DNA of 64,000 bases from Rhizophlyctis rosea (lineage: Eukaryota; Chytridiomycota; Chytridiomycetes; Rhizophlyctidales; Rhizophlyctidaceae): NCBI GenBank assembly GCA_027596075.1, contig JADGJC010000105.1:55839-119838 (forward strand). Reading direction: 5' to 3'. Of the stretch, positions 2,141 to 63,069 are shown one piece after another. The stretch's first letter is position 1; each line of letters opens with the position of its first letter. Made by a program: the position numbers and the translations under genes. The notes under the pieces were generated by a model that worked only from the letters and a program-made list of their open reading frames with translations, made no database searches and was not told the origin of the DNA.

Positions 2141-3336
<1,196 letters not shown>

Positions 3337-5040: not shown

Positions 5041-7164
5041 TCAGTCATCATCCCCTGCAGTTTTGCCCTCTGTCGCCTGCTTCCACATGCTTTTGAGAAT
5101 CCCCTTCGCAAGATCCCTAATGGTATTAGAATACGTCCCCCAAAACACCTCCGTCCGATCTCTCGACATGGCACTTTTCGTCATCCGCCCCTTATTACCA
5201 CCATCCTGATCCCCCTTCAACAACCTCTTATTCGTCACACTACTACTCTTCTCCCAAATAACCCTCTTAATCTCCTCCTCAGGCGTATCCTGATCCTCGT
5301 CCATCAACTCCCACCGCAGCTGGTCAACGATATCCGTACAATGGAAATCGACCGCGGATAGTTCCCATTCTCGGATATCCAAATCGGCGGTTTGTTCCAG
5401 TTGTATGGTGTTGATTTGGTAGTTCATTTGGGTGTAGAAGGGGTTTTGGAAGAGGCTTGGGGGTGGGGAGGATGGGTCTGGTAGGAAGCGTTTGAACCAT
5501 ACGGTTGTTGCTGCGTCTAGCATGGCCATATCCCCTGCAGGCATTACCAAGAATGAGTCTGTTCCAACCTTCGATTGTTCAAGTGAACATCGCCACTCAC
5601 CTCTCATGCCCCCATATGCCTTCCGAAGTTGCAGAGAGTAAAGCAAGTCTCGATACTCAGTCGGCAAACTGCTGACCTCCTTACTGTTAAGTTTGACAGG
5701 CTGAGACTCGTCCGGAGGGGTCTCGTCGGAATTGGGAACGGGATCGCGAAAGGTTGATGATGCAAGTGCTTCTACGAACCCGAGTAACCACTTAACGCAG
5801 CTCTCGGGTGGATGAAACCCCTTGCTCAAAGCACACATGAGCCATATGAGGACTACGAGGGTAGGAATGTGAGCATCAAGTGTCTGGTGAAAACCGCAAC
5901 ATTTGGGAATACACACTCGGGAACTTGATGTGCAATACTGCATCCTCCACCACCATGATCGGCACTCGTCGAAGCAGTTGATTGATATCCAGAAGGGCGA
6001 GGTGCTTTGCCGTCCGAAGGGCAACGGTAGGTTTGCCCCGACGAATGCATTTTTGCAGATGAGATTTTAGGAGTGGTATAAACGCTGATGTGTAGGGTGG
6101 GCCGTTGTGATGAACGAACGCCAAGTGCAGAGTGTTGAGTTCGGCGGACGGCACGGATGAGCAGATCTACATCAATGAACATATGTTGAAATATTGTCCA
6201 AGTAGTTGTGAATGAAATGCGCGTCTTACGGTAATGGTCCTATGCTGATCCCTCCAATGAAACTCACTCTTCCACGCGATCTGCAGCGGCTTTTCGGACG
6301 TAAAAGTGGCGACGTTCTTCCTATCATCATAATAGAAATACCCCGGCACTCGGTAATCAGGCAATCCCAGGAAGTTGTGTAATGAAGACTGGTTTGATGA
6401 TACTGGTCGTGATGGTGCAGATTTCGCAGTCTTTCCATTAGACGACGATGACTTGCTCGATTCTGAAGATTCGGTGAGCGGCGTCTTAGTTCCAGGCGTT
6501 GGCACATCGTCTTCGTCATTGCCGGCGTTATCTTCGGAATTGCTGTCGTAACCCGCCATGATTGACGCGAGAGTCTGTTCACCTGATTTTCTTTTTTTGG
6601 GTGCAGGTCGTTTTCCTAATGAGACATTCAATTTGGAGTCTTTCAATCAGGTGCAGGAAAGTAGCAGTCATACAAACCTTTAGGTTGCAGCGTCGAGGTT
6701 GTGGTTGGACGAAGGGGTGGGTTGGCGGGCTTAGATCGCGCCGATTTCGGAGAAGGCTTTGGAGACTTGCTGGTGGGTGAATCACTTGCAAGGGTGGCCT
6801 TCAGTCCTGCACGGAAACGTTTGGGATCCTTATTCCCACTAGTTGCTAGTGAGGTGGCGGCTGGCCGTTTGCGAGTATCAGACGTGCTCTCTGCGTAGTC
6901 AGACCCTGCTTCGCTCCCTCCCCAGATTTCTCCTGAGATATCGTCGTCTTCATTCTGATACCGTGGCCGGGGTCTTGATCCACCTGTGGTGGTGCTTCGT
7001 GATGTTTCTGTAAGATCAACTTCGACATTGAGACGAGCTGGGGACGATTTGTGAAGAATCGAGATTGACGGTTCTGAGGTGTTGGAGGAGGGTGTGGTTG
7101 GACGGCCTGTGCCCTTCGCGAGGAATCCGGTGAGAGTTGGCTGTTTCTTTTTGGGAGGCTGCAT
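5041..7164 (-). CDS. Uncharacterised protein with N-terminal PIP-box and a clamp-loader-like helical region
   Basis: I do not recognise a named family. The N-terminus carries KKKQPTLTGFLAKG, a good match to a PCNA-interacting PIP box (QxxLxxFL) in a basic context. About 200 disordered Ser/Thr/Pro/Lys-rich residues follow. The next ordered blocks are LHNFLGLPDYRVPGYFYYDD, LQKCIRRGKPTVALRTAKHL, LLRRVPIMVVEDA, LIWLMCALSKGF and LRKAYGGM. The block with a basic RRG, an A-L pair, LLRR and ED resembles the C-terminal helical domain of MgsA/WRNIP1-type AAA proteins, but no Walker motifs are present. Exons join in frame through four introns, including a 55-nt one after VVEDA and one after YGGMR. A replication or DNA-repair role is inferred from the PIP box only. 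The ATG at 7164 was chosen as the first in-frame ATG; a TTG lies upstream. Confidence 0.75.
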
Positions 7165-55808: not shown

Positions 55809-56953
55809 ATGTCAAAATTGACAAAACTGCACACCAAGCTACGCAAGACACTTGCCAAAGCAACATCATCAGATTTCGAGAAATGGCGGAAGAGCCCAAT
55901 CTTGAGAGAAGTCTTGAATACCATTCTTGTGAGTACCACAAGTCATGTATTGGTACAGAGTGTTTTCTAACAGCCACTGACAGCGTACTGAAAGAACCAT
56001 AGTACCAATGAGGCTTGTCAAAAGGAATGATATTCTTGAGGTGCTTGGTGTGAACCTTATGCCCTTTCTTGCCACCGCTGAGAATGAGGGTACCAACTGG
56101 GTGTTGGAGGAGGAGGAAGGTTTTAAACAGTCAGAGGCCTTCAGTACGTTCTGCAACTCCAGGCCTGCCGTGTTATCTCATTGTCATATTTGCTTATTTC
56201 TCTTGTCTTTGCACCACAGGATCACACTACCAAGATCTCAAAACTTATTACTCAGCCGACAGCGAACCAATGACCCGTGCATACCTTGATGCATACATCC
56301 TGGAGGTCATGCGCACGCTCCAAAGAACCACCAATGAGCACCTCAAGATATACGGTGAGATCGCCATATCCTGCACCGCCAATGGGAAGACTTTGAACGG
56401 ATACGGTGATTGGTTCATTGCTTACGGAGAGAAGGGTGACGCACTGCTGAAAAATGTCGCTCTGGTGGGAGTGGCAAAAGACATCACCGTCGACATCACT
56501 TCCGAGCAAGCTCTCTGCCAAGTCTTTGCCTACATGCTCATCATTCATCGCATCCGGAAGGAAGAAGGGAAAGCACACTCTCGTGTCTACGGCTTCATCA
56601 CAAACCGGCGTCGATGGCTTTTCCTCATGGTCACTGATTCCGGAACGCTAAAGAAAACCACGGATTTGAAGGAGAGTGAGCAGCAGTCACAGATACTTGC
56701 CAACCTTTGCTACATCTTCCAACAAGCTCAACTAGCATCACCGAGTACAACACTGTCAACATCTACTGAATCCCTTACTGAAGAGTCTGCAAATACTGAA
56801 TCCTTGGTCTATGGTGATTTGGAAGTAGTCTCGTTTCATAATTCCATGGGGGCAGCATTCACATTACAGGACGAGGAGGAAGACGAGGAGGAGGACGACG
56901 ATGAGGATAAGGAGGGAGAGTGGGAGGAGGAAGGTGGTGAAGAAGGGGTATGA
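55809..56953 (+). CDS. PD-(D/E)XK nuclease-like protein, possibly inactive, about 335 aa
   Basis: No named family, but the core has the layout of a PD-(D/E)XK (restriction-endonuclease-fold) domain. The Asp-bearing strand is GYGDWFIAYG. Next is LLKNVALVGVAKDITVDIT, where ExK is expected but reads VxxK/GVAK. The helix EQALCQVFAYMLIIHRIR carries the conserved Q. Then SRVYGFITNRRRWLFLMV resembles the YG..T....W.F strand seen in REase domains of fungal and oomycete Crinkler-type effectors. The missing glutamate suggests loss of cleavage activity. Introns: 55929-55983 (55 nt) and about 56145-56219. The tail is extremely acidic (runs of E and D) before the TGA. It lies 947 bp upstream of the helicase-like gene on the same strand. 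Confidence 0.6.
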
Positions 56954-57900: not shown

Positions 57901-60900
57901 ATGTCTCCGAACAAAAAGCAACGGATTGCAGACGAGAAGGAGGAGATGAAGCGTCGGTTCATATTCTGCGTTCGCCAACTGTCTGGAAAATCGGAGATGG
58001 ATATTAGAAATGCGATTGGTGACGAGTCGGAATATATTCCTGTGGTAGCGGAGCAGAACGGTGTCCGTATAGTTATATGGAATGGCCTCAAACCGTCGAA
58101 TGTGATCAAAGTGCATGGGCCCGAAGCAGCCGAAGGAGTGAGGGTGTGGAACTTGCAATATGATGGTTCAGGCTACTATCCGCTAGATAGTACCCGATTG
58201 AAAAACATTTGGATGGGTGAGGAGGTACGTACAACTGTTTGCATGGCGTGTGCAGAAGGCCATAATCTGAAAGCTTTCTAATTGACATTCCAGTCGGAAG
58301 ATGAAGATACAGAGGACGAAGAGATGGCGGATGTCGAACATCACAAACCAAGTGACGGGTCGGATGTCGAGATGTCCGAGGCCGAGGAGTATATAGAATT
58401 AAATAAAGGGAGGCTCACCTTTACTCCAAACGATGACAAAGATGACGAGAAACAAGAGCCCTACGGTCCTGGTCGTGCAAGGCTAACCGATATCATCGCT
58501 AGGCAGTATCAACAACTCCCAGGGGCACCGGCGTTGGTGACTGTGGACGATATGGATGGATCTATGATTAGAGCACCAGAGGAAGTCGGTCTTCCACGCA
58601 ATCGGCACCTGTGTATATGGTCCTTATCGTGTTCCCAAAAGGCTTTGAACTACGGGAGCATGGGGGAACGCATCGCATTCATCAATGACCACCTGCCTGA
58701 TGTGAACTTCGTCACTCAACCCTTTGCGTATGGGCTGCGGATGCTACCGAACAGTGTGGGCACTGTAGATTTGCATACGACCGCATATCCGATTGCAGCA
58801 CTGCACATTTTGCGCGATTTCCTCCAGTCGTACTTTAGTAGGGAAACTTATGGTCCCATCCAAATCTTCCTAACATTCGTGCTGCAACCGGAAGCGCAGC
58901 AATTGGAAATAATGCAGAGGCGCAAGGAGGCTCAAAGGGATACTGGTGGAAGTCCTTTCGAACCCCATTTGATACTTTTCGAGCATAGTGGGGAGGATGA
59001 CCGAGAGGAGTTGATGTTGATCTTGCCATTGCTGGAGGAGCAATTGAACAGCTTGCAGTTGCAGCGGATCCCGCTCCCGGACACCAATGTGGCGGCTACA
59101 TTCGAGTTGGATGATTTGCATGCCTACCTGTATGAAGACAAGGCGGGGCTTTCAATGTGTTGCCTTAGATTCGCTGTCCTCCCACAACCCGCAATTGCAC
59201 GGCAAAGTCCACGGATTCCACCTCCAAGCGCCACTGAACCATATGTATTCCACGAAGAGGTTGCGTGGGACAACTACGGCGAGCTGCTATATGGTCCTAT
59301 TGACCTGGCGAAGAACGTTCTAGCTTATATGGAAGCAGTTGTCGGACCAGAAATCCATGAAGATCGGCTCAAAACGATGCTAGTTGACTTTACCGATCCT
59401 CCCCTTGTCGTCATCTCAAAAATCATCTCGGTGCTAATTCCGCGCGGTCCTCCAACTCTCGAAAAAGTTTATACAGACCTGATTGTGCACGGCCAAGAAC
59501 GAGCCGGGAAGTCCGCTGCTCTGATTTTGCCAACATTAGTTGCCAATTCGCCCCCAATGAGAGCGATATCAGCTGCAGCCAACAAAAGAGTGAGAACAGC
59601 TCTAGCTGTCGGCCCCAACACCCGGGGACCGGAAAAGGACGCTCTGACAAAGCTGGGGCCATCCACGATTTCGGGTCACTTGTCCAACCTCCAGCGTCTT
59701 ACTCAAAAGGACATCCATTTGATGGACAATGCATCGGACATTGACGCGTATGTGTTTGGAGACAGCGATAATAGAGCGAAGATGCTTCAGGACATGATGA
59801 AACGCGGGGAATTGATTGGGCATGGCACAACACAGGCGAAGATTGATTGGCTGAATGTTATTGACGAAGCCTCGCACTTTTTCGGGAGGGGCTTTTGGGG
59901 CGGCAGCTACAGCATGTCGGAAACAAAATGGCGGGATATAATCAAACGGCCATGCGTACGAGCGAACATTTATGTCGATGCTACACCAGGGCCTCTCTTT
60001 TACCGTGGGGGGGATCGTGTTTTAGGTAGAGGTGGGTCCATACAGGTGCTTCGGTTGAAACGGTCGGATACGTATTACGGTGCGGATCGCCTTGAGACCA
60101 AGTACGTTCTGGCAAACGGCGACAGCTTTGATTCTTGCAAGGTCGGAAGATATAAACAGGAAATCCCGGATGGAAGCGTGGACCTGTATAATGCAGCTCA
60201 TCGGTGTCTCAGTGCGTATCTCAACACGCCTGTTCACGACTGTACTCAGGAGGGGCAACAGTATCGTGTATTACCAATCTTTCTTATCGGTCTAACGGAA
60301 AAGGTTGAGATGAAACAAGCTGGTGGGCAGAAGCAGCTCGCAGTAAAGTTGGCAATGGGTGAATACCAAGGGCATGAGTGGGATGAGGATAATCAGCAAT
60401 GGAAACCCCGGTCGTATGAGAGGGAAAAGCCGGTGTGCATAACTTACGCCAACAACATAATAACCATATTTGTTGAGATCGAAGGGGAGGTGCGCGTGGA
60501 GACTGCCAATAATTTCATCTTACGTTGTTTTCCAAATCACTCAAGCCTGGGCGTCGACGACGAGAAAGCAGGGAACGCCAAAACTATGGGAGATAGCATA
60601 TCGGATACCATGCCCCTCGTGATGGAAAAGTATGGCGTGACACGACCAGTGTTTTTACTTGGTTACGGACGTTTTGCCCGCTTGGTAACTGTTGCGTTCA
60701 AGAAAACGTTCGATAACATTGATCACCGGTGGATCGTCACGCATGCCGCCATGAAAGTAACCATGAAACAGAAAACAGAGGAATACACAAGATGTATGGA
60801 GGACATCAGGCAGTTTGTTGCGCGAACGCTCACACGGACATACGGACTGCACCACGACACCCTATCCTCGTCCCCTTCCCCTAACCCCAATCTACTTTCA

Positions 60901-63069
60901 CATCCATGTGGCTTTCGTCCAAAATTCGTCATATAGTTAGCAACGCAGCAGGGAGTGAAGGAAGCTATTGCGGATCACATACGGACCACATACTACTTCA
61001 TGCACCATCTTGCATACCATCGAGATTTGGATCTGGCGCAGCAAGCTATGGCGAACACTCCATTGCCTAGCGGTCTCTACGGGCGCAAACATCTGTCGAC
61101 AAAGCGCAAAACCATCAACTCCATTGTTCCAAATACTCGTCCCTTCAATAGCATTGAGTATGCCCGGACCCATCATCCAGGCTTTTTGCAGCAATTTGCA
61201 AACTATTATGATAGATTAGGTATCGAATCACAAATCCAACTGCTTCGCAACGAGGAAAACTTGCGTCGGGAGATGGAAGCAGCTCAGGAAGCATATCTTC
61301 AAATGGCCACGTCGCAGGCAGCGCACGTTATACCCAACCACTTCTTTGATCGCTTCTACCCACAGCACGATTTAGTATTCTCCACGGAAGAGCGCATTGC
61401 TCTTCATGATCTATACTTAAAGCGTTGCAGACCGGCGATCGATAAGATGTGTTTCAACTTCATTCAAAACCCGGCCGCACCAACTTCGCCTCTGGACACA
61501 GCGATGGAAATGTTTGCTCGTCTCTTCGCATTCAATTACACTTGGCAACTAGACAATTATGGGGCGGCGTGCGCGGAAGTTCCGTCCACATTCCGTCGAC
61601 AGGGCTGTGTTCTGTCCGTGATTTGGTTTGCTTTAAGTGATCGGCAGCTGAAGGTGGGAATTTCCAAAAATGAAATCATTTGCCTACAGCGGTTCGCAGG
61701 ATACAAAGCCGATGAGATAGATGATTTGAATTGGTTGACCTATCCGTCCGTGAATAAGGCCTCACTGGTTACCACATCGTTATTGGAAGTATCGTCAGGC
61801 TTCCTCAAACTTGGGGACGAGTTTCTTGTCCGGCGGGGCGAATTCGCTGATTTGTCGGGAAGTTTGCCAGGTGGATCGCCGTTGTTGAAAAGATTTTTGG
61901 ACTCGTGTAGGCATCATACGTTATCATTTCTTCGGGATCATGCTGGGAAAGTGTACGAATCCCTTGAAAGCCAGACCATGAACACAGGAATTCCATTCGG
62001 CGTTCAGCTTTAGTACAACCGCGTCAATCGAAGAGGCAATCGATCATTGCGACAGAGCAAATCCTTTCACTGGACTGGCGTATAAGAATGTATTTTCAAT
62101 AGTTTAGAAACACAGTACAACGAGATGTTCATCACAACGGCGCGACGCTCGGTCTGCCAAGCAGTTGACTTTGATCAGGATCGACGTCGTAATATAGAAG
62201 CCTGGTGGTTGATCGTCAGCCCATGGCTATCCTACTTGAGGGGGGTGAAAAGTGACGCCACGAGGGACCTGGACCCAACAGGGATTCTGATTGGAATAAT
62301 GGCATGTCAATGCGAAGAAGGCTTACCACCATCTACATTTGATCGCTTATATCAACTACTATTTGGCGGGGAGAGCGACACACAGGATGCCTACGCTTGC
62401 AGGGATCAGATAGCCACAAAAGAATTGCTCTTTGCCCGGGAGAATCCACGGACTTACACTAAACCATTGGTGATGCTGGACAACGAAGGGAAGTATGTGC
62501 TCCACGGAGCGTGGTCAAACTTCTTCGAGGGGCATTTCCCAAAATACATAGGAGACGAGTATGAGGACATTAGTGACGAATTTTTGGAACAACTGCGGGA
62601 AGTCCTTGAAGGGCTAATATTTCAGGCATTTAGAACTCTCCAGGGGAACGGGTTGGTCGTCGTGGAAGAGGTGATAGAAGATGTACCTCATGCAGTTTTA
62701 GAATACCGCGAACGATTCGATGCCGACCTTGCGAGAGCTGCCACCCTCCCTGAATCGGAGTGGCCCACAATGAAGCTACTTGCGGATAAGCTAACAAAGC
62801 CTGAGCGCAAGTACTGGTGTGTGTTCTGCAAACTCTTCATCCGTGACGGTCAGGTCCAACCGCTCACGCGGATCAACGCCGCGGTGAGGAAGGAAGTTAA
62901 AGAGTGGCACTCACGAACATATGGGAAGGGGACAACCATCAATCTGCCATATCATGGGCCTCGCTTGCCCGATCAGCGACGGCCTTGGCGTGACAGGGCG
63001 TCAGGAGGGTATGCGCACATTGTGAAAGTTGGCGGAGATGATCCTGAATTGTATCGGATCGCATGGTGA
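57901..63069 (+). CDS. Large P-loop ATPase / SF2-helicase-like protein, about 1,620 aa, 4 long exons
   Basis: Novel to me. Residues 1-108 resemble the second half of an OTU-type fold (GDESEYIPVVAEQNGVRIVI, VWNLQYDGSGYYPLD). After an acidic linker comes a helicase-like core. It has Walker A GQERAGKSAALILPTLV (about 508), Walker B VIDEASHFFGRG (about 632), a motif-III-like YVDATPGP (about 670), and FLLGYGRFARLVTVAF (about 896) with WIVTHAAMKV. This order recalls Z1-type SF2 ATPases. The rest (GRKHLSTKRKTINSIVPNTR, CVLSVIWFALSDRQLKVGIS, YWCVFCKLFIRDG) matches nothing I know. Introns: 58225-58293 and 62013-62102 are firm. The third, about 60794-60940 (CTAAC branch-like site at 60881), removes an in-frame TAG at 60934 but its exact ends are unsure. 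Exons of 2.5, 1.1 and 1.0 kb contrast with neighbouring genes. Confidence 0.72.

Follow-up and report, generated by a model that had tools for sequence, protein, structure and literature searches.

Gene structure at the locus

The window analysed here, a stretch of 64,000 nucleotides (nt), corresponds to C8:55839-119838 of the genome of the chytrid fungus Rhizophlyctis rosea (44.1 Mb in 634 contigs), and its right edge is the end of the contig. The gene in question lies on the forward strand at positions 57901-63069 of the window and carries motifs that resemble those of superfamily 2 (SF2) helicases. The protein closest to it is the hypothetical protein HDV00_000484 of R. rosea (P0001; 99% identity). 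The features of the gene are as follows.

57901..58224, forward strand: exon 1, encoding the N-terminus; its splice to 58294 matches the NCBI protein P0001
58225..58293, forward strand: intron 1, GT-AG, 69 nt, in agreement with P0001
58294..60933, forward strand: long coding frame of 880 codons, with an N-terminal conserved block followed by the SF2-like core
60851..60911, forward strand: 61-base-pair (bp) stretch, 100% identical to C2:5726-5786
60934..60936, forward strand: in-frame TAG, which interrupts the frame
60937..62012, forward strand: coding block in the same frame after the TAG, conserved from its first residue
62013..62102, forward strand: putative intron, GT-AG, 90 nt, with the in-frame join FGVQL/YLETQYN; absent from the NCBI model
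62103..63069, forward strand: last exon, with the stop codon TGA at 63067-63069

A protein search directed at the core returned two full-length relatives: P0002 (R. rosea HK097_009826; 1702 amino acids, uninterrupted; E 1e-123), which is 46% identical to the core of the window protein, and P0003 (a JGI sequence of 1575 amino acids; E 2e-104). The two share 41% identity over P0002 residues 204-1680. In tblastn, P0002 and P0003 gave one match each, starting at 58315 and 58534 and ending in the last exon at 62535 and 62553, respectively, and because these matches are single, the locus is regarded as one gene. The block after the TAG has 34-36% identity to the two relatives in BLASTP (for P0002, residues 1-333, E 6e-58; for P0003, residues 1-341, E 9e-49). 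The NCBI model HDV00_000484, as judged from the P0001 sequence, cuts out 60794-61219, stops at 62011-62013 and lacks the last exon; the removal of 60794-61219 means a loss of conserved coding sequence. Coding in another frame over 62013-62102 was considered and rejected, as 149/1000 and 275/1000 shuffled peptides scored as high against P0002 and P0003, respectively, and the GT-AG intron therefore stands.

The first-pass annotation, which was made from the letters of the window, had expected an intron near 60.8-60.95 kb, which was not confirmed; the frame there holds the TAG. P0002 and P0003 carry the block just 5' of the TAG, EYTRCMEDIRQF.AR.LTRTYGL, in almost the same form. Between the conserved blocks flanking the TAG, twelve in-frame introns of the GT-AG or GC-AG type fit; all are 21-57 nt long, shorter than the other introns of the gene (69 and 90 nt), and longer ones would remove conserved sequence. 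Because only these short in-frame introns are available, the window copy is either broken or spliced by some other route. The stretch between the conserved blocks, which holds both the 61-bp duplicate and the TAG, has no counterpart in P0002 and P0003, and the 61-bp sequence adjoining the stop has the look of a templated insertion or of a very small mobile stretch.

Conserved core and its likeness to SF2 helicases

The conserved features of the N-terminal block and the core are listed below, where conservation refers to four family members with 32-51% identity to P0002 unless another count is given.

58471..59259 (approximate), forward strand: N-terminal block VTVDD...SCS...VDLHTTAYP...LTF...EIM, in 3/3 sequences
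59491..59514, forward strand: Walker A, GQERAGKS; family form GxERxGKS in 4/4
59608..59634, forward strand: motif Ia-like VGPNTRGPE; GPNTxGP in 4/4
59857..59892, forward strand: Walker B/motif II, VIDEASHFFGRG, with IDEASH from 59860; IDE, H and FGRG in 4/4; aligns with SF2 motif II
59977..59988, forward strand: motif III-like DATP; AT in 4/4, ATP in 3/4
60073..60090, forward strand: YYGxDR block, in 4/4
60658..60690, forward strand: LGYGRFARLVT, motif V-like by eye; LGYxRxAR in 4/4; not significant as a segment alone
60781..60849, forward strand: EYTRCMEDIRQFVARTLTRTYGL, motif VI-like by eye, with possible arginine fingers; nearly identical in P0002 and P0003; not significant alone

The presence of Walker A, IDEASH, DATP and LGYGRFARLVT...VTHAAM (60658-60753), and of long open frames, was confirmed as first described. 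The first-pass annotation had named the absence of conservation of the Walker-like motifs in homologues as evidence that would count against its reading, and these motifs are kept in all four members. GxERxGKS, IDE, AT and LGYxRxAR are invariant, and the residue after IDE is always A or S (IDE[AS]). The core motifs are considered to be more than chance because they are invariant at such low identity. The SF2 superfamily patterns GxxxxGK[ST] for the Walker A P-loop and DExx for motif II are likewise found in 4/4 members.

The segment from Walker A to motif III scored 32.7 against SF2 profiles, a value reached by 0/150 shuffles, though with an hhalign probability of only 17%, whereas for the motif V-VI segment 68/150 shuffles scored as high, though its look-alike blocks are conserved. 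The likeness of LGYGRFARLVT was seen by eye, and 47/150 shuffles scored as high. Compared with SF2 helicases of the DEAD, RecG, UvrB and RecQ kind, the family is alike in having Walker A to motif II in register, but it differs in giving no detectable motif V-VI match, in the far larger size of the protein and in matching no family library. In structure prediction, which had been proposed as a check, AlphaFold gave a predicted local distance difference test (pLDDT) value of 32 from two sequences and, from four sequences with domain 1 only, alternating strands and helices at a mean pLDDT of 51.4. In the latter model, strands lie just before or at Walker A and motifs Ia, II and III, at low pLDDT, and structure searches with it were unspecific; as modelled, a RecA fold is neither proven nor refuted.

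Family, N-terminal region and surroundings

The genome also has a diverged second copy, at C220:39143-42962, which shows 36% identity over the core and 28% in the C-terminal alignment and has TRCIEDIRHLVGR at the motif VI-like position. In this paralogue (L006 coordinates), the frame changes between about 4700 and 4731, an in-frame TAA is present at 5478-5480, and family homology is detectable only from about 3143-3170; the family N-terminal block was not found in it. Upstream of its core, where that block would be, 2863-3142 is an open frame (MAEFRNEIERISAALGC...), which could represent an alternative N-terminus, a separate gene or a truncation. Each of the two copies in this genome appears to be interrupted. 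A genome search with the long exon of the window gene found no core copy beyond these two, and P0002 is therefore without a close counterpart in this genome; HK097 and HDV00 would, from their locus tags, be different strains. Relatives were found only in R. rosea records and in one further database sequence, by protein searches that scored about 8,000 candidates each and may miss more distant relatives. Searches with words from the first 500 residues returned only the protein itself, probably owing to the origin of the words.

No significant match was found in Pfam (best E 0.11) or PHROGs (best E 0.27), none in NCBIfam for the family members, none in PADLOC for window exon 2, P0002 and P0003, and nothing better than E 0.1 in PDB sequence searches. 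Pattern scans confirmed 0 of 130, 20 and 36 candidate stretches in IMG/VR and 0 of 409 and 33 in GTDB; phage records gave no match, and plasmids gave no relative, only six integrase matches (E 0.1-0.9). As far as family libraries, protein searches and a locus-tag literature search reach, the family is previously undescribed, as had been stated of the gene.

The 58471-59259 block looks, from its sequence, like a separate domain of unassigned fold. The idea that VDLHTTAYP...LTF marks a methyltransferase was unsupported: a PDB search returned a P450 at E 0.1, a DnaJ homologue at E 0.38 and nothing else. The degenerate OTU-like start of the first description also failed. Exon 1 and the start of P0002, compared with three OTU stretches from R. 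rosea (two above the Pfam cut-off and one below), scored 13.7 in hhalign, and 22/200 shuffles scored as high. By eye only, P0002 has a short stretch of the A...YN..I.I kind that, like the corresponding part of exon 1, recalls OTU cysteine proteases (PF02338), but no catalytic Cys or DGNC-type segment was seen by eye, nor was there a Pfam match. The first 130 residues of P0001 gave no significant BLASTP match to P0002 (E 8.5), and P0003 lacks this region.

Upstream, the open frame 56054-56950, which may have a nuclease-like look, has no Pfam match, and its relatives lie on at least five further contigs of this genome (C35, C140, C246, C223 and C602). A pairing of this gene as nuclease with the putative motor gene was unsupported; among the relatives listed, none is on C220. 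Telomeric repeats occur at the ends of several contigs, which among the matches listed do not include C2, C8 or C220.

Origin and present state of the gene

A recent capture of a viral or transposon gene by the fungus, the origin first suggested, would agree with the very restricted known distribution, the differences in copies between R. rosea records and the broken copies. It is nevertheless very unlikely, given that no relative appeared in the IMG/VR scans, phages or plasmids, that the gene has introns, that its chromosomal neighbours include SNARE and methyltransferase genes, and that its guanine-plus-cytosine (GC) content is that of the neighbourhood (0.485-0.501 for 58001-62000 against 0.466-0.551 across the window), so that a foreign composition was unsupported. 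The long exons, taken earlier as a sign of foreignness, were not supported as unusual: the window has 32 stop-to-stop frames of at least 220 codons on both strands, three of them in this gene and some in ordinary genes (syntaxin, methyltransferase). We also regard it as unlikely, if somewhat less so, that the protein is a P-loop nucleoside triphosphatase of another class (with an AAA-, STAND- or GTPase-like switch) that serves as a large ATPase in signalling or assembly and whose likeness to SF2 arose by chance. The unusual Walker A GxERxGKS, the non-significant motif V-VI likeness and a domain model that is unlike helicases and has P-loop GTPases among its weak matches all point that way, but the alignment to SF2, in register over Walker A, Ia and II, scores higher than 150/150 shuffles, an AT block is conserved after motif II, and Rho, two ABC proteins and two superfamily 1 (SF1) helicases score 15.2-21.1, in a comparison limited to these classes.

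A reading compatible with any assignment of the family is that both copies are dead relics or assembly artefacts and that the protein has lost its function in this genome, to which we give slightly less than an even chance. The in-frame TAG beside the 61-bp duplicate and the frame change, TAA and late-starting homology of the paralogue speak for it; more than 4.6 kb of otherwise open sequence, constraint at the protein level and the uninterrupted 1702-residue relative in the other R. rosea record speak against it. The first overall interpretation is supported in part, and the gene looks, from the sequences compared, like a member of an undescribed family of very large proteins, carried by this chytrid and built round what seems to be a helicase-type ATP-driven motor.
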